Notes under the pieces: generated by a model
What the model was told of the DNA's origin: nothing
Databases searched by the model: none
What the model saw: only the letters and a program-made list of their open reading frames with translations
Made by a program: the position numbers and the translations under genes
Shown here: positions 56,455-63,996 of the stretch, one piece after another
How the letters are laid out: each line of letters begins with the position of its first letter
How positions within the stretch are numbered: position 1 is the stretch's first letter
Source of the DNA: a virus
IMG/VR virus record: IMGVR_UViG_3300025778_000010
Coordinates: 1-64,000 of that record
Length of the DNA: 64,000 nucleotides
Reading direction: 5' to 3' (one strand)

Positions 56455-56483
56455 TTGAAAATGTCAGTGGTGTGTGTTATAGT
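56455..56483 (+). promoter_or_regulatory. Promoter TTGAAA-N17-TATAGT with TGTCAG element
   Basis: TTGAAA (56455-56460) and TATAGT (56478-56483) with 17-base spacing. TGTCAG lies ten bases upstream of the -10 and TGT directly precedes it. First of nine copies of this arrangement. Confidence 0.65.
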
Positions 56484-56539
56484 TACACTATAAGAAATTA
56501 ACAAAGGTTGTTAGTTTAACTTAAAGAAAGGAAGTCAAA

Positions 56540-56764
56540 ATGACTTCACTAAATAACTACTATAATGAAATCCGTATGGATATTGCTAAAGATTTTGGTC
56601 TAGAGGCAGGTGGCTATGCTCCCCGCCCTAAGTTAATGCCTATCACTATCGCTCAGCGTATTAACGCTAAGTATCCTAGTGTAGATAATGGCTCTCGTTG
56701 GGGTCAGCCTAATCCAAAGGCTATCCTAATCGCTAAGCGTTATCACGCTCTGTTTGTGGCGTAA
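56540..56764 (+). CDS. Small basic protein, first gene of the early block (74 aa)
   Basis: Start with GAAAGGAAG ribosome site. Sequence MTSLNNYYNEIRMDIAKDFG, then PKLMPITIAQRINAKYPSVD and KAILIAKRYHALFVA. Helical, basic, no known family recognised. The presence of two helix-rich segments separated by Pro/Gly resembles small DNA-binding or host-takeover proteins, but this is only compositional. Base composition is less AT-rich than the leftward fibre genes. Confidence 0.6.
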   Translation: MTSLNNYYNEIRMDIAKDFGLEAGGYAPRPKLMPITIAQRINAKYPSVDNGSRWGQPNPKAILIAKRYHALFVA

Positions 56765-56791
56765 GTCACAATCACGGCACGGCGTGTCGAG

Positions 56792-56820
56792 TTGATTTTG
56801 TCAGCCCTATCTGATAGACT
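56792..56820 (+). promoter_or_regulatory. Promoter TTGATT-N17-TAGACT with GGCGTGTCG element
   Basis: GGCGTGTCGAG (56781-56791) directly abuts TTGATT; 17 bases on, TAGACT (56815-56820). TGTCAG at 56799 is ten bases upstream of the -10, preceded by T. The 5' region after the -10 (CTTCCAGTCATA then AAATTAAATAAAGA) is nearly repeated after the promoter at 58376. Confidence 0.65.
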
Positions 56821-56975
56821 TCCAGTCATACAAATTAAATAAAGAAAAATCCTAGTTGAGCCTCTGAGCCTTAGCAAATAATCCGAAAGGTGAGCCTAAG
56901 CAAATAAGAGCAAATAACACTAGGCAAGGAAAGATAGATAAAAGGTTTATCTATAAAAAAAGAAAGGTGACTAAT

Positions 56976-57122
56976 ATGTCATACTCATTCGATAATAATA
57001 ATAAAGACCGTTGGTCAGAACTAGCAGACAATTATCAATCAATGCTAGATGAACTAGCAGAATCAGAATCAGAATCTGTATTTATCCCCGTACCTGCGTT
57101 TGATGTAGACGAGGTGCTCTAA
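56976..57122 (+). CDS. Small acidic protein (48 aa)
   Basis: ATG with an AAAGAAAGGTGAC ribosome site; MSYSFDNNNKDRWSELADNY, then QSMLDELAESESESVFIPV and a C-terminus FDVDEVL. Very acidic and probably helical. The following gene overlaps it as TAATG. Preceded by a 211-base leader with promoter and a 7-bp AGATAAA/TTTATCT hairpin. Function unknown; acidic small proteins of phages often mimic DNA to inhibit host enzymes. Confidence 0.55.
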   Translation: MSYSFDNNNKDRWSELADNYQSMLDELAESESESVFIPVPAFDVDEVL

Positions 57123-57226
57123 TGACTATAAATAGTTTAACTCTCATTTCACTATTGCTAGTGTCGTACCTATCTGCTAAACTACTAACCGATAAAGAAT
57201 GGGGAAAGAATAAAAATGAAAACTAA
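57122..57226 (+). CDS. Single-pass membrane peptide (34 aa)
   Basis: TAATG overlap with the preceding gene. MTINSLTLISLLLVSYLSAK has a 15-residue hydrophobic stretch, then KLLTDKEWGKNKNEN, a charged tail. Overlaps the secreted-peptide gene by 11 bases. A small membrane peptide, perhaps modifying host membrane behaviour. The coupling on both sides supports it being real. Confidence 0.45.
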   Translation: MTINSLTLISLLLVSYLSAKLLTDKEWGKNKNEN

Positions 57227-57422
57227 GATTATCGTACTAGGATTAGCACTCGCTCTAATTCCCGCCGTTGCTAACGCTCGTGGCACAAGCCATCATTCTT
57301 ATAGCCTGTCTAGTGTAGGTCGCTACACTTATCACTATCACAAGCCTAGCCATATCTATTGCCCATATCAAGGCTGTAAAAAATCGTTCTCTAGTTTCAC
57401 TAGCACTAGTGGCGGAAACTAA
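57216..57422 (+). CDS. Secreted small protein with signal peptide (68 aa)
   Basis: Residues 1-21 form a signal peptide (KTKIIVLGLALALIPAVANA, cleavage after ANA). The mature protein has SHHSYSLSSVGRYTYHYHK and a CPYQGCKKSFSS segment with Cys-x4-Cys. The pattern His/Tyr-rich then Cys pair recalls small metal-binding secreted proteins such as YHYH-type or zinc-finger-like. Role on the outside of the host is not known. A promoter overlaps its stop. Confidence 0.6.
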   Translation: MKTKIIVLGLALALIPAVANARGTSHHSYSLSSVGRYTYHYHKPSHIYCPYQGCKKSFSSFTSTSGGN

Positions 57423-57444
57423 TGTCAGTGGTCTATGGTAGACT
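57422..57444 (+). promoter_or_regulatory. Promoter ATGTCAG-N10-TAGACT
   Basis: TGTCAG (57423-57428), ten bases, TAGACT (57439-57444), with TGG just before the -10. Located at the stop of the secreted-protein gene and 36 bases upstream of the next. Confidence 0.6.
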
Positions 57445-57479
57445 ACTATTAACAACAACAAGAAAAGGAAAATAAATAA

Positions 57480-57644
57480 ATGACAATCGAAAATCGTACT
57501 TACCAAATCGGTGACCTATTCACCACACAACGCTCAAAGGTAACAGGAACAATTAAGGAAATTGTAAATGTAAAGCCTAACCAATCTCGTGTGAAGTTGG
57601 AAGTTGACGGCAAAGACCGCTGGACAACTGTCACAATCAAGTAA
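57480..57644 (+). CDS. Small beta-rich protein, paralog 1 (54 aa)
   Basis: GAAAAGGAAAA ribosome site, ATG 57480. Sequence TYQIGDLFTTQRSKVTGTIK, then SRVKLEVDGKDRWTTVTIK. The 56-residue protein downstream shares the layout TYQIGDLFTT, 'VTG-x-I', 'RV-x-L' and a closing basic strand. Small SH3-like or translation-like barrels begin this way (DLF-TT, VTG-x-I); function unknown. Confidence 0.6.
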   Translation: MTIENRTYQIGDLFTTQRSKVTGTIKEIVNVKPNQSRVKLEVDGKDRWTTVTIK

Positions 57645-57645
57645 A

Positions 57646-57664
57646 GTTTAGCAAATCGCTAAAC
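57646..57664 (+). repeat. Small hairpin after paralog 1
   Basis: GTTTAGC (57646-57652), five-base loop, GCTAAAC (57658-57664), immediately after the stop of the 54-residue gene. No T-run follows, so a processing or pausing stem is more likely than a strong terminator. Confidence 0.4.
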
Positions 57665-57723
57665 GACCTGAGCAAGTCGGAAAAAGGCTCAACTAATACC
57701 CAACAAAGAAAAGGAAAAAAAGA

Positions 57724-57894
57724 ATGACACTACACGGATACACTTATCAAATCGGAGATTTATTCACCACATCAAAGACAGGCGTAACTGGACGAATTAA
57801 CTCGTTCTCTCCTGTATCAAATAAAGTAACTCGTGTTGGTCTAACTTTAGCAAATGGCTCAAAGCGTATTGCTATGGTAAAGACAACGAAGTAA
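57724..57894 (+). CDS. Small beta-rich protein, paralog 2 (56 aa)
   Basis: GAAAAGGAAAA ribosome site, ATG 57724. Sequence GYTYQIGDLFTTSKTGVTGR, then TRVGLTLANGSKRIAMVKTT. The paralog upstream differs mainly in the middle loop. Tandem duplication of small genes suggests a fast-evolving function such as anti-defence or regulation. No named domain was recognised. Confidence 0.6.
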   Translation: MTLHGYTYQIGDLFTTSKTGVTGRINSFSPVSNKVTRVGLTLANGSKRIAMVKTTK

Positions 57895-57907
57895 AAATAA
57901 AATAAGT

Positions 57908-57947
57908 TTAGGCGGGACTGCACACTAATAACGACACTCCCGCCTAA
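57908..57947 (+). terminator. Hairpin TTAGGCGGGA / TCCCGCCTAA
   Basis: Ten-base perfect stem with a 20-base loop between two genes. A short AATTCAC follows instead of a T-run, so may be a partial terminator. Confidence 0.45.
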
Positions 57948-57975
57948 TTCACAAAACACGAAAGGAAAACTAATT

Positions 57976-58158
57976 ATGTCAATGTCACGCAAGGACTATG
58001 TTTCAACCGCTGAAATTATTAATTCTTATGCTTCAGAAATTAAACTCGAAGTGCTAGAAGATCTAGTAAATGATTTCATCGAAATGTTCGCATCAGATAA
58101 CGAGCGATTCAATAGCGATAGATTTTGGGACGAGTGTTTTAAAAACACAAATCACTAA
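57976..58158 (+). CDS. Small acidic helical protein (60 aa)
   Basis: GAAAGGAAAAC ribosome site before ATG 57976. MSMSRKDYVSTAEIINSYAS, then EVLEDLVNDFIEMFASDNER and FDSDR-type end ('RFNSDRFWDECFKNTNH'). Helical and acidic; similar small proteins occur across actinophages without assigned function. Ends at a strong terminator. Confidence 0.6.
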   Translation: MSMSRKDYVSTAEIINSYASEIKLEVLEDLVNDFIEMFASDNERFNSDRFWDECFKNTNH

Positions 58159-58172
58159 ATAAAAATAAAAGC

Positions 58173-58207
58173 TTAGGCGTAGCAAAATTGCTACGCCTAA
58201 TTTTATT
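58173..58207 (+). terminator. Intrinsic terminator
   Basis: Thirteen-base stem (TTAGGCGTAGCAA with TTGCTACGCCTAA) with a two- to four-base loop, followed by TTTTATT. It ends the transcript from the 57-58 kb genes. Confidence 0.85.
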
Positions 58208-58225
58208 AAAAAATAAAAAAAAATA

Positions 58226-58267
58226 ACGGCGTGTCGGCTTGACAAAGCCGAGCCGAGGGGCTGGCCC
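58226..58267 (+). repeat. Composite repeat copy: ACGGCGTGTCGGCTTGACA-N17-TGGCCC
   Basis: Contains CGTGTCG (58230-58236), TTGACA (58239-58244) and, exactly 17 bases on, TGGCCC (58262-58267). The same spacing is found at 61551 and 62928. GGGGCTGGCCC occupies the place of a -10 box. Confidence 0.7.
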
Positions 58268-58314
58268 AAAAAATCGGACATTTACGGCATTTAAGACATT
58301 CGATATACACAGAT

Positions 58315-58335
58315 TTATCCACAAGCTGTGGATTA
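58315..58335. other. Inverted pair of DnaA boxes
   Basis: TTATCCACA (58315-58323, perfect bacterial consensus) followed after three bases by TGTGGATTA (58327-58335, one mismatch from the reverse consensus). Flanked by AT-rich DNA. Possible phage origin using host DnaA. Confidence 0.5.
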
Positions 58336-58375
58336 TTGTTCATCTTAAATTAACCTAAAACTTACGGCGTGTCGC

Positions 58376-58404
58376 TTGATTTTTTCGATTTTATCTGATA
58401 AACT
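58376..58404 (+). promoter_or_regulatory. Promoter TTGATT-N17-TAAACT with GGCGTGTCG element
   Basis: ACGGCGTGTCGC (58364-58375) directly before TTGATT; then 17 bases and TAAACT (58399-58404). It lacks TGTCAG (TTTCGA at that place). Downstream CTTCCAGTTATA nearly repeats the region after the promoter at 56792. Confidence 0.6.
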
Positions 58405-58562
58405 TCCAGTTATAAAATTAAATAAAGATATAAAAAATGTGATGTACTTCACAAAGTACACGCTCCAAATATTGAGACTACTCCCCAGTATACTCGATAG
58501 TAGCGAAAAAGTATGTTAAACTAGCGATAGTTAAACAGTTAAAAAAGAAAGGTGGTCATAAA

Positions 58563-58862
58563 ATGGCTACACTAGAAGTAAAAGTAAATGATAGTTTTGT
58601 TCCGCTTGAGTATGCTCCAAGCGATGTAAAGATTTCTCTTGAGTGGGCGTTAATGAATAATGCTCCAATGGTAGTAAAATCCACTACCCCCGCCGTTGTT
58701 CGTGTTTGCAAAGTTTGCGAATATGCACACGAAGGTTTGTATTGCACAAATTGTTTCACGGGTGAGCGTGTAAATTGCTCCCCTGCTGGCAAGTTTAATA
58801 AATGGTCAAAAGTGATGCGAATCACACCAACTACTTGCAACAAATCTCGGCGTGTCGCCTAG
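58563..58862 (+). CDS. Zinc-finger small protein (99 aa)
   Basis: AAAGAAAGGTGG ribosome site. N-terminal beta part MATLEVKVNDSFVPLEYAPS, then zinc finger CKVCEYAHEGLYCTNC (Cys-x2-Cys, Cys-x2-Cys) and a basic C-terminus (CNKSRRVA). Probably nucleic-acid or protein binding. A promoter with TGTCAG lies across its stop codon. Not recognised as a named family. Confidence 0.6.
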   Translation: MATLEVKVNDSFVPLEYAPSDVKISLEWALMNNAPMVVKSTTPAVVRVCKVCEYAHEGLYCTNCFTGERVNCSPAGKFNKWSKVMRITPTTCNKSRRVA

Positions 58863-58865
58863 ATA

Positions 58866-58888
58866 ATGTCAGTATAATCTGATATAAT
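58866..58888 (+). promoter_or_regulatory. Promoter ATGTCAG-N10-TATAAT
   Basis: TGTCAG (58867-58872), ten bases, TATAAT (58883-58888) with TGA before it. GGCGTGTCG (58849-58857) lies just upstream inside the previous gene's end. Start of the next gene is 35 bases on. Confidence 0.65.
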
Positions 58889-58922
58889 TCCAACTATCAA
58901 CAAAAAGAAAGGTGGCAACTTA

Positions 58923-59147
58923 ATGCTAATCTCAGAAGCCTTAGAAGGCAAATATGTAAAGTCCTCAAAAGGACAAGGCATAATCCAATATGCAGATTTC
59001 CGAAAGGATATGCACCACTCTACCCCTGAGGGTTATCTTGCTTATGCTTGCAAGGTTCGCCCTACTTATAACCCTGAAGTGCATAAGTTTATTCCAGAAG
59101 ATTTCTGGACAACAATTTATGTCGGATTGGATAGTGAATTACTATGA
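58923..59147 (+). CDS. Small unknown protein (74 aa)
   Basis: AAGAAAGGTGG ribosome site. Sequence LISEALEGKYVKSSKGQGII, then ADFRKDMHHSTPEGYLAYAC and VGLDSELL end. A small beta-rich protein; its stop overlaps the next start (ATGA). No family recognised. Confidence 0.55.
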   Translation: MLISEALEGKYVKSSKGQGIIQYADFRKDMHHSTPEGYLAYACKVRPTYNPEVHKFIPEDFWTTIYVGLDSELL

Positions 59148-59350
59148 CAATTAAAATTGGTGGGCTAGGGCAGACAATTTCTGCCTATTGCCCAGTATGC
59201 TCTCAAAAGATGACCCATATGTGTATCGCTACACTTGGAACGGGTAAAACAATTCGCTATGAGTGGCAATGCCAGCCTTGCGAATTATCTCTAAAGTCTG
59301 ACTCAACAGGCTATGCTCATCTACTCACAGAAATGGCTTACTATGTCTGA
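59144..59350 (+). CDS. Zinc-ribbon small protein (68 aa)
   Basis: ATGA overlap with the preceding gene. Zinc ribbon with CPVCSQKMTHMC at 16-27 and CQPCELSL near 43 (two CxxC pairs). Compact and basic, so a nucleic-acid binding role is likely. The next gene starts within its last codons. Confidence 0.6.
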   Translation: MTIKIGGLGQTISAYCPVCSQKMTHMCIATLGTGKTIRYEWQCQPCELSLKSDSTGYAHLLTEMAYYV

Positions 59351-59459
59351 TAAAATTTTCATATGTGATGAATGTGATACCCTTGCCACAATGTCAGTGC
59401 AAGGTGATACAATAACTATAAATAAATGTAAGTGCTTAACTTTAGAATGGAGCAACTAA
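59343..59459 (+). CDS. Small zinc-binding protein (38 aa)
   Basis: Starts inside the end of the 68-residue gene (TATGTCTGA) and ends as TAATG with the next. CDECDTLATMSV and CKCLTLEWSN contain Cys-x2-Cys and Cys-x-Cys. The codons for T-M-S-V lie within a TGTCAG promoter, so this gene carries the control element for its downstream neighbour. Confidence 0.5.
   Translation: MSDKIFICDECDTLATMSVQGDTITINKCKCLTLEWSN
59391..59413 (+). promoter_or_regulatory. Promoter ATGTCAG-N10-TACAAT inside a small gene
   Basis: TGTCAG (59392-59397), ten bases, TACAAT (59408-59413) with TGA before it. Lies in the coding sequence of the 38-residue gene, 46 bases before the next start. Confidence 0.5.
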
Positions 59460-59665
59460 TGTACAAAATTACAACAACCTATGACGGAAATCCCGTCCCA
59501 CACTCTATTCACTCTTATGCTGATGCACTTGATGCGTTTGACTCGTTTGGTCGTTGCACCGATTGGGGATTTGCAGATGAATATGCAACCTACAATTTAA
59601 CTTTACCTGATGGAAAAATGTACACAAAGATTTTTTATCGTAGCGGAAAAGTTGGTGGAAAGTAA
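59459..59665 (+). CDS. Small unknown protein (68 aa)
   Basis: Start at 59459 by TAATG coupling (an in-frame ATG at 59447 and a CTT-region start are inside the previous gene). Sequence MYKITTTYDGNPVPHSIHSY, then DAFDSFGRCTDWGFADEYAT and a closing basic strand. Beta/alpha with a Tyr/Phe-rich core, no family recognised. Overlaps the next ATG. Confidence 0.55.
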   Translation: MYKITTTYDGNPVPHSIHSYADALDAFDSFGRCTDWGFADEYATYNLTLPDGKMYTKIFYRSGKVGGK

Positions 59666-59745
59666 TGGCAACAACAATTCACCTTGGCGGAATAGAATCA
59701 GAATGTGAGAAGTGTCGTGAAATTGCGGGAGAAAATAATGAATAA
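59665..59745 (+). CDS. Small CxxC peptide (26 aa)
   Basis: TAATG overlap with the previous gene. Encodes a 26-residue peptide ending ECEKCREIAGENNE, with one Cys-x2-Cys pair that could bind metal as a dimer. Ends inside the next gene's start (ATGAATAA). Too short for certainty; coupling on both sides supports it. Confidence 0.4.
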   Translation: MATTIHLGGIESECEKCREIAGENNE

Positions 59746-59848
59746 AGTAAATCGTGTTCAAGAGTTGCGGAGATCAAATGCTGCAACTCCAATTCGTAAC
59801 AAGAAAAAATATACACGTAAAAATAAATATAAAAATAAATTTGAATAA
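59738..59848 (+). CDS. Small basic peptide (36 aa)
   Basis: ATG at 59738 inside the previous gene end. MNKVNRVQELRRSNAATPIR, then NKKKYTRKNKYKNKF, strongly basic. This small protein type (NAATPIRNKKKY) is a common feature of actinophage early regions, likely nucleic-acid binding. Ends the first string of coupled genes. Confidence 0.55.
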   Translation: MNKVNRVQELRRSNAATPIRNKKKYTRKNKYKNKFE

Positions 59849-59872
59849 ATATTTATAACATTGCATAGCTAT

Positions 59873-59920
59873 GCGACACGCCCGAGTGCGGCTGGCCCCT
59901 GTCAACTCGACACGCCGATT
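59873..59920 (-). repeat. Composite repeat copy, opposite orientation
   Basis: Two CGACACG copies (59874-59880, 59908-59914) flank GGCTGGCCCC. GTCAACTCGACACGCCG is the reverse complement of CGGCGTGTCGAGTTGAC. Followed by ATTACGGGGTGTGATTTTAA, nearly repeated at 61,597. Confidence 0.65.
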
Positions 59921-59968
59921 ACGGGGTGTGATTTTAATCTCCCAAATACTGGCGGGTACAACTAGATA

Positions 59969-59991
59969 ATGTCAGTGGGTTCTGCTATACT
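59969..59991 (+). promoter_or_regulatory. Promoter ATGTCAG-N10-TATACT
   Basis: TGTCAG (59970-59975), ten bases, TATACT (59986-59991) with TGC before it. Preceded by CTAGATA as at 58866. Drives the next gene 30 bases on. Confidence 0.65.
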
Positions 59992-60021
59992 TCCGATATC
60001 AAGAAAAGAAAGGGGCATTAA

Positions 60022-60249
60022 ATGTCTACTGTTGCCACATATTGCAAAGATTGCAATAAGCGTTTATCTGATATTTCAGTATATGACGCTCCCTATACTT
60101 CCGATTCTACTTGCTGGGAGTGTATCTTCAAGTCCTGCGATAACTGCTATGGTCAAGGAATTACTGGATGGGTATCTCCAGATGGTGATTTTGATTTTGA
60201 TTATTGCGAGTGCAACCCACTTTGCCTAACACTAGAAGAGGTCAAATAA
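60022..60249 (+). CDS. Cys-rich zinc-binding small protein (75 aa)
   Basis: GAAAGGGGC ribosome site. Many Cys residues (CKDCNKR, CWECIFKSCDNCYGQG, CECNPLC) in zinc-ribbon arrangement, with Asp/Phe-rich segment (PDGDFDFDYC). It is likely a multi-zinc small protein, perhaps binding nucleic acid. The start of the next gene overlaps the stop (TAATG). Confidence 0.6.
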   Translation: MSTVATYCKDCNKRLSDISVYDAPYTSDSTCWECIFKSCDNCYGQGITGWVSPDGDFDFDYCECNPLCLTLEEVK

Positions 60250-60440
60250 TGACTAATGAAACTATTTTTGAAGTAGCCTGCCTATACTATGAAGTATGCG
60301 GTACAAGCGAAGTATTCTACTCTGAAGAAGAGTATGATATCTATGGCGATGATTATGTCTGCCCTGAGTGCTATTATCAGATGGCGGAAATGGAGTCTGA
60401 TTCCTTCCCGCTATCTTTAGAATATGATGAGGGGGAATAA
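60249..60440 (+). CDS. Small acidic zinc-binding protein (63 aa)
   Basis: Start 60249 by TAATG coupling; MTNETIFEVACLYYEVCGTS, then DDYVCPECYYQMAEMESDS and an acidic end. Three or four Cys including CPEC suggest a rubredoxin/zinc-ribbon half site. Highly acidic. Followed by another coupled gene. Confidence 0.55.
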   Translation: MTNETIFEVACLYYEVCGTSEVFYSEEEYDIYGDDYVCPECYYQMAEMESDSFPLSLEYDEGE

Positions 60441-60574
60441 TGTCTGACAAGTCTGCTCAAGATCTATTTAATGAAATGGATACCCTTTGGGATAATTTCA
60501 AGAAAGCCACATGGCAAATGTCAGTGGTGCCTGCTACAATAACATCCTTAACCCAACCAAAGAATGGAAACTAA
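60440..60574 (+). CDS. Small protein carrying a promoter in its end (44 aa)
   Basis: TAATG coupling with the previous gene. MSDKSAQDLFNEMDTLWDNF, then KKATWQMSVVPATITSLTQP. The MSVV-PATI codons are the TGTCAG-N10-TACAAT promoter. Gene content is conserved in style, ending NGN just before the next start. Confidence 0.45.
   Translation: MSDKSAQDLFNEMDTLWDNFKKATWQMSVVPATITSLTQPKNGN
60518..60540 (+). promoter_or_regulatory. Promoter ATGTCAG-N10-TACAAT inside a small gene
   Basis: TGTCAG (60519-60524), ten bases, TACAAT (60535-60540) with TGC before it, 35 bases upstream of the DUF4192-like gene start. Almost the same sequence as the promoter at 63221. Confidence 0.65.
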
Positions 60575-60575
60575 C

Positions 60576-61049
60576 ATGACAACAACCCTAACCCGTGGCG
60601 AAGCCAAAGATACAATTGATTTCGCAATTGAACAATTTATCAACGAGATTGAAGTCTCTGATGATATGCTATTAACGATTACCTATGCCGTAAATAATGA
60701 CTTGCAGATTCGTGATTACTTCCTTGGGCTCCCGTCCGATTATGGTATGCAGGTATGCGTTGATTTTGTCAACTATCTTTCACGAGTAACTAATGCACGA
60801 GAAGGATATGCATATGACACAATTTCTGCAATGTATCATATTGAACAAGGCAACACAGACTTGGCTAAGTCTCTGCTAGAAATTGCAGAAAAAAATAATC
60901 CTGATTATAATCTCATGAAACTTGCGAAGAGAATTCTTTCAGCAGGTTGGCCAGGTTCCGAATTAACTAGAATGCGTAATGAATTGCATTCTTCAGTTGT
61001 GGATACTATCACCGAAGAGCCAAATATTTTAATTGAAGAGGTGGCGTAA
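60576..61049 (+). CDS. DUF4192-like protein (157 aa)
   Basis: Resembles the C-terminal half of actinobacterial DUF4192 proteins: LLTITYAVNNDLQIRDYFLG, then AREGYAYDTISAMYHIEQGN, LAKSLLEIAEKNNPDYNLMK and AKRILSAGWPGSELT. This family is largely limited to Actinobacteria and their phages and supports such a host. Function is unknown. The start at 60576 (MTTTLTRGEAKD) is chosen over 60564, which lies in the ribosome site. Overlaps the next gene (TAATG). Confidence 0.55.
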   Translation: MTTTLTRGEAKDTIDFAIEQFINEIEVSDDMLLTITYAVNNDLQIRDYFLGLPSDYGMQVCVDFVNYLSRVTNAREGYAYDTISAMYHIEQGNTDLAKSLLEIAEKNNPDYNLMKLAKRILSAGWPGSELTRMRNELHSSVVDTITEEPNILIEEVA

Positions 61050-61207
61050 TGTCAGCACCATATGCAACAATTAACGGCGTTGAGGTTCATGAGGACCTCA
61101 ACGGCTATGCCGTGGTCATGAAGAATGGCAAGGTAATTAAAAAGTATACCAACTCAAGAGAAGACGCATTAGGCAAAGCAATGCACTATGCACAGGAGAT
61201 TAAATAA
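61049..61207 (+). CDS. Small unknown protein (52 aa)
   Basis: TAATG coupling. MSAPYATINGVEVHEDLNGY, then AVVMKNGKVIKKYTNSREDA. Strand-turn-strand followed by a helix (LGKAMHYAQEIK). Similar short proteins with 'G-x-V-I-K-K-Y' are common in actinophages; function not known. The next gene starts one base later. Confidence 0.5.
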   Translation: MSAPYATINGVEVHEDLNGYAVVMKNGKVIKKYTNSREDALGKAMHYAQEIK

Positions 61208-61423
61208 ATGGCAAAGCATCCACCAGTCAACAGTGCACAATGGCATTCTGTATTTGCAGATGATCAATGCAAAATTTATCAAGACGGTAACGATGATATT
61301 TTTTTCAAGGTCATGATCAAGGGCCAACGTGTTAAATATTTTTATAATGAAACAGCTCATAGCGACGTTGCACGTTACTGCAGCGACGAGCTTGGAATTA
61401 GCTATTGGTCCGTATTAAATTAA
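61208..61423 (+). CDS. Small unknown protein (71 aa)
   Basis: Start directly after the previous stop. AQWHSVFADDQCKIYQDGND, then FFKVMIKGQRVKYFYNETAH, CSDELGISYWSVLN end. Beta/alpha with two Cys and Trp. Unknown. Part of the same coupled set. Confidence 0.5.
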   Translation: MAKHPPVNSAQWHSVFADDQCKIYQDGNDDIFFKVMIKGQRVKYFYNETAHSDVARYCSDELGISYWSVLN

Positions 61424-61445
61424 TTTAACTTGGGTGGGGAATAAA

Positions 61446-61535
61446 ATGCAAGCGGTAGCATATGTATTGGTCTATGGATCTGCATTCGCTATCGCATGCA
61501 TTTTTTATTTTATATTTTCTAAAAAAGATTTTTAA
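61446..61535 (+). CDS. Small membrane peptide (29 aa)
   Basis: GGTGGGG ribosome site. MQAVAYVLVYGSAFAIACIF, then YFIFSKKDF: one 22-residue hydrophobic span with a short charged tail. Small membrane peptide, possibly a lysis, exclusion or regulatory factor. Short length keeps confidence moderate. Confidence 0.45.
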   Translation: MQAVAYVLVYGSAFAIACIFYFIFSKKDF

Positions 61536-61537
61536 AT

Positions 61538-61610
61538 GCGGTGTGTCGAGTTGACAACCGTTGATTTTTGGGCTGGCCCGTCAAGCCGACACGCCGTTTA
61601 CGGGGCGTGA
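61538..61610. repeat. Composite repeat copy, complete palindromic form
   Basis: GCGGTGTGTCGAGTTGACA, 17 bases from TTGACA (61551-61556) to TGGCCC (61574-61579), then GTCAAGCCGACACGCCG (61580-61596) as the inverted arm. Followed by TTTACGGGGCGTGATTTTAA. The arms could form a long stem with GGGCTGGCCC in the loop. Confidence 0.75.
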
Positions 61611-61691
61611 TTTTAATCACATGGAATGGGCGGGGACAAAACGGACATATCAGACAAATCATTATTTAACTTAGGCTTTACGGGTAGACAG

Positions 61692-61714
61692 ATGTCAGCC
61701 TTATCTGCTAGAAT
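61692..61714 (+). promoter_or_regulatory. Promoter ATGTCAG-N10-TAGAAT
   Basis: TGTCAG (61693-61698), ten bases, TAGAAT (61709-61714) with TGC before it. A TAGACA -35-like hexamer (61685-61690) is at 18 bases from the -10. Drives the DUF932 gene 31 bases on. Confidence 0.65.
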
Positions 61715-61745
61715 AGGCATACATTAACAGAAAGAAGGAAAAAAT

Positions 61746-62786
61746 ATGACTAACCCAATGTCACAGGTTCATCGCTCAGAAGTTGAGGATGGTTCTGTAT
61801 CTCTTGCTGTATCACTTCGCACAAATCCTGCATGGCACTCTTTTGCTAACAAGGTATTTGCTAAGGATGAGCAAGTCACAACCGCACAAATGCTAGATGC
61901 TGCTAAACTCTCAAATTGGAATGTTTCTCTTGAGTCTGTTTCAGATTTATTGCCAGACAACTATGATTCTGTTAGCGAGAATTTTTTGGTTGTTCGTGAT
62001 AACCCTTACACAGCAGGACAAAAAGATGTTCTCTCAGTTGTAGGCTCACGCTATAAGGCTGTTCAGAATGAAGAACTCTTTTCTTTTGCAGATAACCTAC
62101 ATGATGGAAACCCTGATGTAAATTGGGAAAGTGCAGGTTCTCTAAAGAATGGTCGTGTTGTATTTGGCACAATGTCAATTCCCCGCACTATGGTTCTTGA
62201 CCCTAATGGTGCTAATGACACTACCAATCTTTATCTCGTAGTTTACACTTCACACGATGGTTCAGTTGCGGTTCAATCTGCAATTACCCCTGTTCGTGTT
62301 ATGTGTCAAAACACTCTTAATTTCGCTATGCGTAAGGCTAAGCAATCTTTCAAGATTCGCCACACTCAGACAGTAGATGGAAAAATTGCTGCTGCTCGTG
62401 AGACTCTAGGTCTAACTCTTGCGTACATGGATGAATTCGAAACACAAGCAAAAGAACTTTTCTCTCGTGAAGTGACAAATGCTAAGTTTAGCGAAATCAT
62501 TAACAAGATGTATCCTAAGCCAGAGGCAGATGTTAAGGGTTCAATCAAGAAGTGGGAAAACAAGGTTGTTCTGCTTGATGACCTTTACCATAACTCTCCT
62601 ACTAATGCTAATATCAAGGGTACAGCATGGGGCGTTGTAAATGCTCTAACCGAACGCCTTGATTACTATCGCACAGCCCGCAAGGGAAACAGCGATTCGC
62701 TAATGGCAGGTGCAAGCGGATTTGACCCTGTTATCACAGCAGAAAAAAATAAAATTGTTAAGCAGGTTCTTGCACTTACCGCTTAA
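61746..62786 (+). CDS. DUF932 / phage-plasmid-like protein (346 aa)
   Basis: Matches TIGR03299/DUF932: SLAVSLRTNPAWHSFANKVF start, then VLSVVGSRYKAVQNEELFSF, GSLKNGRVVFGTMSIP, NTLNFAMRKAKQSFKIRHT and C-terminal TAWGVVNALTERLDYYRTAR. The family is found in phages and plasmids and has no settled function (perhaps replication or anti-restriction). GAAAGAAGGAAA ribosome site. Base composition is less AT-rich than the leftward operon. It ends at a GAAA-tetraloop hairpin. Confidence 0.85.
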   Translation: MTNPMSQVHRSEVEDGSVSLAVSLRTNPAWHSFANKVFAKDEQVTTAQMLDAAKLSNWNVSLESVSDLLPDNYDSVSENFLVVRDNPYTAGQKDVLSVVGSRYKAVQNEELFSFADNLHDGNPDVNWESAGSLKNGRVVFGTMSIPRTMVLDPNGANDTTNLYLVVYTSHDGSVAVQSAITPVRVMCQNTLNFAMRKAKQSFKIRHTQTVDGKIAAARETLGLTLAYMDEFETQAKELFSREVTNAKFSEIINKMYPKPEADVKGSIKKWENKVVLLDDLYHNSPTNANIKGTAWGVVNALTERLDYYRTARKGNSDSLMAGASGFDPVITAEKNKIVKQVLALTA

Positions 62787-62792
62787 TAAATT

Positions 62793-62814
62793 GTGAGGGG
62801 CGAAAGCCCCTCAC
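62793..62814 (+). terminator. GAAA-tetraloop hairpin after DUF932
   Basis: Nine-base stem GTGAGGGGC with its complement, closed by a GAAA loop; the run after is CTCTCTTG rather than a pure T-run. Terminator or 3'-end stabiliser before the tRNA. Confidence 0.7.
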
Positions 62815-62821
62815 CTCTCTT

Positions 62822-62895
62822 GATTCCATAGATCAATTGGTTAGATCGCTACCCTGTCACGGTAGAGGTTGCGGGTTCAAGTCCCGTTGGAATCG
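62822..62895 (+). tRNA. tRNA-Asp (GTC)
   Basis: Complete cloverleaf: acceptor GATTCCA / TGGAATC, D-stem GATC / GATC, anticodon stem CTACC / GGTAG with loop CTGTCAC (anticodon GTC, Asp), T-arm GCGGG-TTCAAGT-CCCGT, discriminator G. No encoded CCA. 74 bases. Only tRNA seen; possible codon supply or former integration site. Confidence 0.9.
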
Positions 62896-62913
62896 CAAAG
62901 TTTAAATGGTCAT

Positions 62914-62956
62914 CACGGCGTGTCGAGTTGACAAAACAGCTGGGGCGGGCTGGCCC
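62914..62956 (+). repeat. Composite repeat copy: ACGGCGTGTCGAGTTGACA-N17-TGGCCC
   Basis: CGTGTCG (62919-62925), TTGACA (62928-62933), 17 bases, TGGCCC (62951-62956). Followed by TTTACGGATGTGATTATAA and a later ATGTCCGATTTGT. Lies just after tRNA-Asp. Confidence 0.7.
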
Positions 62957-63045
62957 CATAAAATCCATAATGTCAAGTCTTTACGGATGTGATTATAAAC
63001 ACATTTACGGATGACCGATATGTCCGATTTGTCTGCGTGTCTAAA

Positions 63046-63074
63046 TTGATTACTCATGGGTAACTTGCTATAAT
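63046..63074 (+). promoter_or_regulatory. Promoter TTGATT-N17-TATAAT, leaderless
   Basis: TTGATT (63046-63051), 17 bases, TATAAT (63069-63074) with TGC before it. The ATG at 63083 is only eight bases from the -10, so transcription begins at or next to the start codon. Confidence 0.6.
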
Positions 63075-63082
63075 ACTCACCT

Positions 63083-63724
63083 ATGGAAAATGTAAAAGAA
63101 ACTTGGTTCAAATGGGATTATGTATGCCCAAATTGCGATGCACATATTGAGATGACTATTAAATCTAATGGTCATCCACATAGCGAGATTTGTTCTAAAT
63201 GCTATGAGCGTCTAACTCTGATGTCAGTGGTAGATGCTACAATATACCCAACTCAAAAGAAAGAAGAACAAACTATGGAAACAACAATCGCTGAACTTTA
63301 TAACCCAAATATGTTGGTTACATATAAGAAGATTACTGATGGTAATACTGAATATATTACTGATAAGGTAACTGATATTGAGTGGGCTCTTGCTCAATCC
63401 CGCCGTAACTATGAGAGCCTTACAGAGCAACAAAATAATTGGTATCTCAAAGAGTCAAAACTACGCACTTTGCTAAATGATGTATTTCACGATTCAGAAG
63501 ACCAAGACACACTTGAAAAAATTGCTGATATTTTTGATGTTCCACTAACTAAGGAAATCGAAGTAACCGCTTGGGTCAATGTCAATATGACTATCGAAGT
63601 TGATATGCGTGAAGGCGAATATGATGTTGAAGACCTTGTTCGCAATAATCTCACAGTAGATGCCTATGGTGGAGAAATCACAGTTCACGACTTTGATGTA
63701 GACCGAGTAGAGGAGCAATACTAA
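63083..63724 (+). CDS. Zinc-finger protein read through into a second domain (213 aa)
   Basis: Start ATG placed for a leaderless mRNA. Residues 1-45 hold a zinc finger: CPNCDAHIEMTIKSNG, then CSKCYERLT. Then MSVVDATIYPTQKKEEQ, coded by a TGTCAG promoter, leads straight into METTIAELYNPNMLVTYKKI and a C-terminal beta domain rich in acidic residues (TVHDFDVDRVEEQY). The N-terminal module looks like separate small zinc proteins elsewhere; a stop codon would be expected at the promoter, as in the 44-residue gene. It could therefore be a natural fusion of two neighbours. Stop overlaps the next start (TAATG). Confidence 0.6.
   Translation: MENVKETWFKWDYVCPNCDAHIEMTIKSNGHPHSEICSKCYERLTLMSVVDATIYPTQKKEEQTMETTIAELYNPNMLVTYKKITDGNTEYITDKVTDIEWALAQSRRNYESLTEQQNNWYLKESKLRTLLNDVFHDSEDQDTLEKIADIFDVPLTKEIEVTAWVNVNMTIEVDMREGEYDVEDLVRNNLTVDAYGGEITVHDFDVDRVEEQY
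63221..63243 (+). promoter_or_regulatory. Promoter ATGTCAG-N10-TACAAT inside the 63083 gene
   Basis: TGTCAG (63222-63227), ten bases, TACAAT (63238-63243) with TGC before it. Lies in frame in the coding sequence of the zinc-finger part. An AAAGAAAGAAG site and ATG follow at 63275. Confidence 0.65.
63275..63724 (+). CDS. Internal start product of the 63083 gene (149 aa)
   Basis: ATG 63275 with a purine-rich AAAGAAAGAAG upstream and its own promoter 32 bases before. The product begins METTIAELYNPNMLV and comprises the helical and acidic beta domains without the zinc finger. Helices LAQSRRNYESLTEQQNNWYL and EDQDTLEKIADIFDVPLTKE lie in the centre. Similar proteins in actinophages are often free-standing, which supports this start. 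Function unknown. Confidence 0.55.
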   Translation: METTIAELYNPNMLVTYKKITDGNTEYITDKVTDIEWALAQSRRNYESLTEQQNNWYLKESKLRTLLNDVFHDSEDQDTLEKIADIFDVPLTKEIEVTAWVNVNMTIEVDMREGEYDVEDLVRNNLTVDAYGGEITVHDFDVDRVEEQY

Positions 63725-63996
63725 TGGCAGTAGCAGTTATTGAAGTCCCGTCCCCTGCTCGTATGGCGAACGGGATTAGCAAATGCCTAACCGCTGGAAT
63801 TGAATATGAGATGCTGGGTGGGATGCAGGTAGAGATTACTTGTGCTGATGAGATGAAGTTAGCTAGAATAATTACAGCCTTTGGCGGTAAAATCCTAAGT
63901 GCTTTTAATCATAAACCAATCACACCAGATGCCCCTAAGCACGAAGTCCAATATGCTAGGACACATAGACCAATTCAGACACGCCGAAAGAATTGA
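63724..63996 (+). CDS. Small basic protein (90 aa)
   Basis: TAATG coupling. AVAVIEVPSPARMANGISKC, then GIEYEMLGGMQVEITCADEM, a helix and a basic C-terminus (RTHRPIQTRRKN). A short alpha/beta fold; no family was recognised. Its stop codon lies just after an AGACACGCCG repeat element (63978-63986 region), so another control region begins at the window end. Confidence 0.5.
   Translation: MAVAVIEVPSPARMANGISKCLTAGIEYEMLGGMQVEITCADEMKLARIITAFGGKILSAFNHKPITPDAPKHEVQYARTHRPIQTRRKN

Follow-up and report, generated by a model that had tools for sequence, protein, structure and literature searches.

The nonamer GGCGTGTCG recurs in the viral record IMGVR_UViG_3300025778_000010 of IMG/VR, of which we analysed the first 64 kb (hereafter the window) of 108,356 bp. 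It is a real promoter part and common to hundreds of related viruses. From its clustering, fixed spacing and tolerated substitutions we consider it probable that GGCGTGTCG is the duplex-DNA site of a sequence-specific regulator, most likely an activator, on the sigma-A-type and PafBC-type promoters of a WhiB-encoding phage lineage with putative actinobacterial hosts.

A first-pass annotation of the window, made from the letters alone, had drawn attention to the word CGTGTCG, which lies within the nonamer. Its eight exact copies were found where they had been reported (56783, 58230, 58368, 58851, 59874, 59908, 61587 and 62919); 0.87 copies were expected, and a count of eight was reached in 0 of 100 shuffles. 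All copies in the genome fall in 56.8–62.9 kb, with none elsewhere in the 108,356 bp. The genes of this phage are mostly on the minus strand; the exception is a plus-strand block at approx. 52.4–67.2 kb, composed mostly of small genes, and the nonamers sit within it.

Conservation and register of the nonamer

Several nonamers, mostly inside a few kb, were present in 29 of 30 other whole viral records of the lineage, with control words nearly nil. In 1.04 Mb of loci collected by protein similarity to the DUF932 gene we counted 463 nonamers and 3 control words, and a scan of 2.9 million viral contigs for GGCGTGTCGAGTTGACA gave 34 matches with varied flanks. When 0–30 nt were allowed between the nonamer and TGTCAG-N10-TAnnnT, 72 of the 124 nonredundant cases among the matches listed had a distance of 9 nt and a further 20 one of 8 nt. 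Because these loci had been fetched by the nonamer and TGTCAG pattern itself, the register was retested on 101 loci, again among the matches listed, that were fetched solely by a leader-RNA motif, the nonamer not being part of the query. These independent loci contained 193 nonamers against 0–1 control words. The arrangement GGCGTGTCG-N2-TTGAC-N18-TAnnnT occurred in them 39 times at N2, with no other spacing seen more than once; over all loci the counts were 68 at N2 and no more than 7 elsewhere. A second architecture was GGCGTGTCG-N8/9-TGTCRG-N7-TGnTAnnnT. From the spacings in both promoter types it follows that the nonamer covers about -46 to -38, against the -35 box. Relative to the -26 element its position peaked at -18 (46 cases), -59 (11) and, inverted, -26 (21), and nonamers were virtually absent within the core promoter and immediately downstream of it.

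Judged from these distances, the geometry is that of an activator site. Class-II activator sites, e.g. those of CRP at class II promoters and of lambda cI or CII, centre near -41.5. The nonamer resembles them in its fixed register adjoining the -35 box and its activator-like distribution, but differs in sequence and is often a single, asymmetric half-site. We regard it as unlikely that the nonamer is instead the operator of a repressor shutting off early promoters. Its place next to the -35 box and the presence of several copies per gene block, some of them palindromic, would suit a repressor; however, the sites lie at -46, -54, -87 or further upstream, almost none covers the -10 box or the start, and no repressor or integrase was suggested among the family matches listed. 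Like the nonamer, the stoperators of mycobacteriophage L5 type are short, asymmetric repeats scattered between the genes of a phage, but the nonamer differs from them in sequence, is tied to promoters at one register and has no recognised repressor.

The tolerated form of the nonamer was GGYGTGTYn, usually preceded by TAC or AAC. G2, G4 and G6 were invariant and T5 and T7 nearly so; T was tolerated at C3 and C8, and several bases at G9. Copies in promoters and copies linked to TTGACA tolerated nearly identical substitutions, so that one factor most likely reads both, and this shared pattern points to a protein that would recognise duplex DNA. In the literature searched, no match of the nonamer to a regulatory motif was recognised. 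The first-pass annotation had offered three readings: operator, alternative-polymerase promoter or stem-loop regulator. The operator fits best, with a fixed -46 to -38 register in many promoters and a single substitution pattern, while a promoter for an alternative polymerase does not agree with an element that adjoins ordinary -35/-10 or -26/extended -10 boxes.

The normal promoters placed earlier at 56792 (TTGATT-N17-TAGACT) and 58376 (TTGATT-N17-TAAACT), with the element on their -35 side, were recovered. The annotation had overlooked TGTCAG at -28 to -23 of the 56792 promoter, the same word in eight further plus-strand promoters (56462 to 63222), and a near copy, TGCGTGTCT, at 63034–63042. 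The promoters with a nonamer in the window are the following.

56781–56820, plus strand: promoter with GGCGTGTCG (56781–56789), TTGATT (56792–56797), TGTCAG (56799–56804) and TAGACT (56815–56820); the architecture matches that of relatives
58366–58404, plus strand: promoter with GGCGTGTCG (58366–58374), TTGATT (58376), N17 and TAAACT; the -26 element is degenerate
58849–58888, plus strand: promoter with nonamer (58849–58857), -26 TGTCAG (58867) and -10 TATAAT (58883–58888)
63034–63074, plus strand: near copy TGCGTGTCT upstream of a sigma-A-type promoter, TTGATT-N17-TATAAT

PafBC-type core promoters

As compared by motif, the core promoters with a -26 element have the sequence and spacing of the PafBC/RecA-NDp promoter that serves the DNA-damage response of actinobacteria. 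The published RecA-NDp motif is tTGTCRgtg-8 nt-TannnT (PMC5656591), and PafBC, activated by single-stranded DNA (ssDNA), inserts between sigma-A domain 4 and the DNA and binds the -26 element (PMC11804915). In 2.44 Mb, TGTCRG-N7-TGnTAnnnT occurred 863 times at a spacer of 7 nt, which is equivalent to the 8 nt between TGTCRGTG and TAnnnT in the published motif, and no other spacer exceeded 16; in the 101 independent loci the counts were 253 and at most 2. The R of TGTCRG was A in 85% and G in 14% of 439 promoters of relatives. Upstream of DUF932 orthologues identified by protein similarity, a PafBC-type promoter was present in 66 of 69 distinct regions, mostly 45–95 nt before the start. Alignment of these regions revealed a conserved array consisting, in this order, of TTGACA and nonamer arms, a TGTGAT-TT-ATCACA palindrome, CGGACAT..CGGACAAAT and the promoter.

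The phage promoters share with PafBC-dependent promoters TGTCRG(TG) at -28 to -21, N8 and TAnnnT at -12 to -7. They differ in that they drive phage genes, stand in arrays, have a strong extended -10 box (TGn), often diverge after TGTCRG and in some cases carry an upstream nonamer; the use of PafBC here is a prediction from sequence. The exact form TGTCRGTG-N8-TAnnnT occurs six times in 56.4–63.3 kb, on the plus strand only, and is listed below together with the promoter of the DUF932 gene.

56462–56483, plus strand: PafBC-type promoter, TGTCAGTG-N8-TATAGT
57423–57444, plus strand: PafBC-type promoter, TGTCAGTG-N8-TAGACT
59392–59413, plus strand: PafBC-type promoter, TGTCAGTG-N8-TACAAT
59970–59991, plus strand: PafBC-type promoter, TGTCAGTG-N8-TATACT
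60519–60540, plus strand: PafBC-type promoter, TGTCAGTG-N8-TACAAT
61693–61714, plus strand: PafBC-type promoter of the DUF932 gene (61746), TGTCAG-N10-TAGAAT
63222–63243, plus strand: PafBC-type promoter, TGTCAGTG-N8-TACAAT

A putative class-II activator, probably phage-encoded, could dock on GGCGTGTCG at -46 to -38 and touch the -35 region. As the core promoters are of the sigma-A type (TTGACT-N17-TAnnnT) or of the PafBC/RecA-NDp type (-26 TGTCRG and extended -10), host sigma-A RNA polymerase would probably start transcription, with ssDNA-activated host PafBC assisting at those promoters that have a -26 element. No phage-encoded PafBC/WYL protein or WhiA was found, and a WYL gene was lacking in this genome and in 24 related records; PafBC would thus have to be the host's. 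We tentatively propose that this large lineage of freshwater actinobacterial phages expresses a gene block from copies of the PafBC promoter combined with a phage-specific activator at GGCGTGTCG, and may thereby couple its gene expression to the ssDNA made during infection. That phage promoters copy a bacterial DNA-damage promoter suggests that these viruses read the DNA-damage alarm of their host. If this is true, the ssDNA that sets off the damage response of actinobacteria is also the signal sensed by these phages; in the open literature we found no account of a phage that uses promoters of the PafBC type.

A structured leader RNA lies at 56850–56935, downstream of the promoter at 56799, and the same leader is found in many loci (e.g. 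L253, L260 and L243). Its helices are CCTAGT/ACTAGG, CTC/GAG or CTGT/ACAG, and CTTAG/CTAAG, with a recurring internal loop, TGAGC/CAAATAA, between them. One variable base pair was T-A in 36 and A-T in 26, and never T-T or A-A, among 62 distinct leaders in the matches listed. The leader had no match in Rfam.

Host, distribution and candidate factors

The terminase of the phage shares 65% identity with its counterpart in Streptomyces phage Gilson, and RecA, RuvC, primase, DnaB and ribonucleotide reductase are among its other genes. A WhiB protein is encoded at 76639–76812 on the minus strand. Because WhiB-like proteins are known from actinobacteria only (PMC6282962), we infer that the host is actinobacterial. 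A blastn search of the nonamer intergenic region against phage isolates gave no convincing match.

The combined architecture of nonamer and -26 element was matched twice in the 84,980 cell genomes of GTDB. Both matches lie in lake metagenome bins, on contigs of 4.2 and 3.6 kb with phage-like genes. By this survey the architecture is restricted to viruses, which makes a phage-encoded factor likelier than a host one. In seven cultivated actinophages (Streptomyces Wofford and Forrest, Rhodococcus NiceHouse, Gordonia CloverMinnie, Arthrobacter Abba, Microbacterium Dropshot and Mycobacterium Vincenzo) the regions read contained no TGTCRG-N7-TGnTA promoter, and the nonamers in these regions numbered one in Abba, five in Dropshot and none in the others. 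Of two related records, one (G036) has such promoters but is free of nonamers, and in the other (G035) two scattered nonamers occur and such promoters are missing; nonamer and core promoter are thus separable. With the motif pair, a phage lineage that is widespread and uncultured could be recognised by a simple sequence marker, and the search for its regulator has a defined target.

Host WhiA, together with a host or phage WhiB, might alternatively bind the nonamer and activate sigma-A promoters. The WhiA core GACAC (PMC3781837) is present in the nonamer (GGC-GTGTC-G) as its reverse complement, WhiB proteins function together with sigma-A and WhiA (PMC6282962), and WhiB is encoded by this phage and by 21 of 30 related records. 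Compared with the sites of WhiA/WhiB-dependent sigma-A promoters, however, the nonamer is longer and differently constrained. WhiA sites have nothing conserved beyond GACAC, whereas conservation here reaches past GTGTC to GGY, to a degree similar to that of the core itself, and T is accepted at C8 within that core. Moreover, WhiB is present in both G036 and G035, the former lacking the nonamer altogether; WhiB does not track the nonamer and does not explain it. With the combined architecture confined, in cell genomes, to phage-like contigs, we consider a role of WhiA improbable.

Several observations weigh against an activator acting with PafBC. The nonamer was found, within two mismatches, at 110 of 599 PafBC-type promoters; most lack it, and it would thus be an accessory. 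The TG following TGTCRG is partly conserved, being present in 45% of the promoters that lack the nonamer and 34% of those that carry it. The actinobacterial host, and with it the putative PafBC, is deduced indirectly. When gene content was compared with the nonamer-poor G036 and G035, a whole block of early genes differed, none of the phage proteins in which a DNA-binding domain is recognisable tracked the nonamer, and ten candidate genes showed no recognised DNA-binding family. Finally, folding was better than chance for many of the non-promoter copies, a property that is not needed in a plain operator.

Copies without a -10 box

As the first-pass annotation had reported, TTGACA-N17-TGGCCC occurs exactly three times in the window, at 58239, 61551 and 62928; each of these copies lies inside GGCTGGCCC. 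The annotation had taken TGGCCC to stand in place of a -10 box. Copies in relatives are neither absent nor randomly placed; the 17-bp spacing, also expected to be conserved, was kept in 1 of 97, (G/C)CCC being commonest 11–13 nt after TTGACA. A pseudo -10 role of TGGCCC was rejected on this lack of conservation. By their sequence, these copies are rather non-promoter (class B) versions of the same site, palindromic in part and located for the most part upstream of PafBC/sigma-A promoters. Of 118 nonredundant GGCGTGTCG-NN-TTGAC copies, 9 passed a loose -10 filter (7 were clear promoters by eye) and the rest had no -10 box. Within 300 nt downstream of the 118 copies we found a TGTCRG promoter in 77, a strict DnaA-like box (TTATCCACA) in 39 and a Crp-like palindrome in 43, and none in shuffles. 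The -10-less copies may serve as additional sites for the factor beside these Crp-like and DnaA-like sites. The inverted repeat at 61538–61596 and the inverted arrangement at 59873–59920 were both confirmed. GTGATTnTAA, earlier counted to the repeat, is part of a separate palindromic Crp-like site. The copies and their neighbours in the window are as follows.

58228–58267, plus strand: class B copy, GGCGTGTCG (58228–58236), TTGACA (58239–58244), TGGCCC (58262–58267)
58315–58335, no strand assigned: DnaA-box-like pair, TTATCCACA (58315–58323) facing TGTGGATTA (58327–58335)
59874–59882, minus strand: nonamer copy of the TCGGGCGTGTCG type
59900–59916, minus strand: class B copy, GGCGTGTCGAGTTGACA
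61540–61595, plus strand: palindromic class B copy, GGTGTGTCG-AG-TTGACA ... GTCAAG-C-CGACACGCC, with TGGCCC at 61574–61579; footprint in DUF932 orthologues
61606–61621, no strand assigned: Crp/GlxR-like palindrome around GTGATTTTAATCAC (61607–61620), conserved upstream of DUF932 in relatives
62917–62956, plus strand: class B copy after tRNA-Asp, GGCGTGTCG, TTGACA (62928–62933), TGGCCC (62951–62956)

That the copies are structured RNA elements, such as attenuators or terminators acting after transcription, we consider improbable as well; the stem-loop of the first-pass annotation applies to the non-promoter copies only. These copies, some of them palindromic with arms TGTCAAG-N-CGACACGCC, surpassed shuffles in folding (mean z -1.8; 45% were below -2). 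The two bases before TTGACA paired with downstream bases in 34 cases (permuted mean 17, maximum 26), and TTGACA...TGTCAA arm pairs numbered 165 where about 42 were expected. Promoter copies, however, precede their own start and show little folding (z -0.6), although their substitution pattern is the same. RNAalifold detected no covarying helix in 25 class B copies. Only 24 of 99 copies closely follow a gene end (control 12.5%), and in an Rfam search near the nonamer copies tRNA alone reached the gathering score. Least probable is a replication origin with the nonamers as iterons clustered with DnaA-like boxes: such boxes do follow 39 of the 118 copies, and the lineage records repeatedly show direct arrays with spacings of 43 and 49 bp, but the register to the -35/-10 boxes is fixed, the copies are spread across several promoters, and a single exact DnaA box lies near nonamers in this genome.

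Crp/GlxR-like palindromes of the TGTGA-N6-TCACA type were located at 58438–58453, 61607–61620 and 62989–63002. Between the Crp-like site and the promoter stands a conserved word, CGGACAT-N2/3-CGGACAAATGT, at 61635–61660 and 63012–63033 and in the DUF932 upstream regions of relatives. The same block holds a tandem pair of small, apparently paralogous genes (57480–57644 and 57724–57894; about 54–56 aa, TYQIGDLFTT...). A very basic peptide of 36 residues (MNKVNRVQELRRSNAATPIRNKKKYTRKNKYKNKFE), belonging to phrog_11957, a family of unknown function, is encoded at 59738–59848; it is conserved in nonamer-rich relatives, and its gene ends just ahead of the nonamer pair at 59874–59916.

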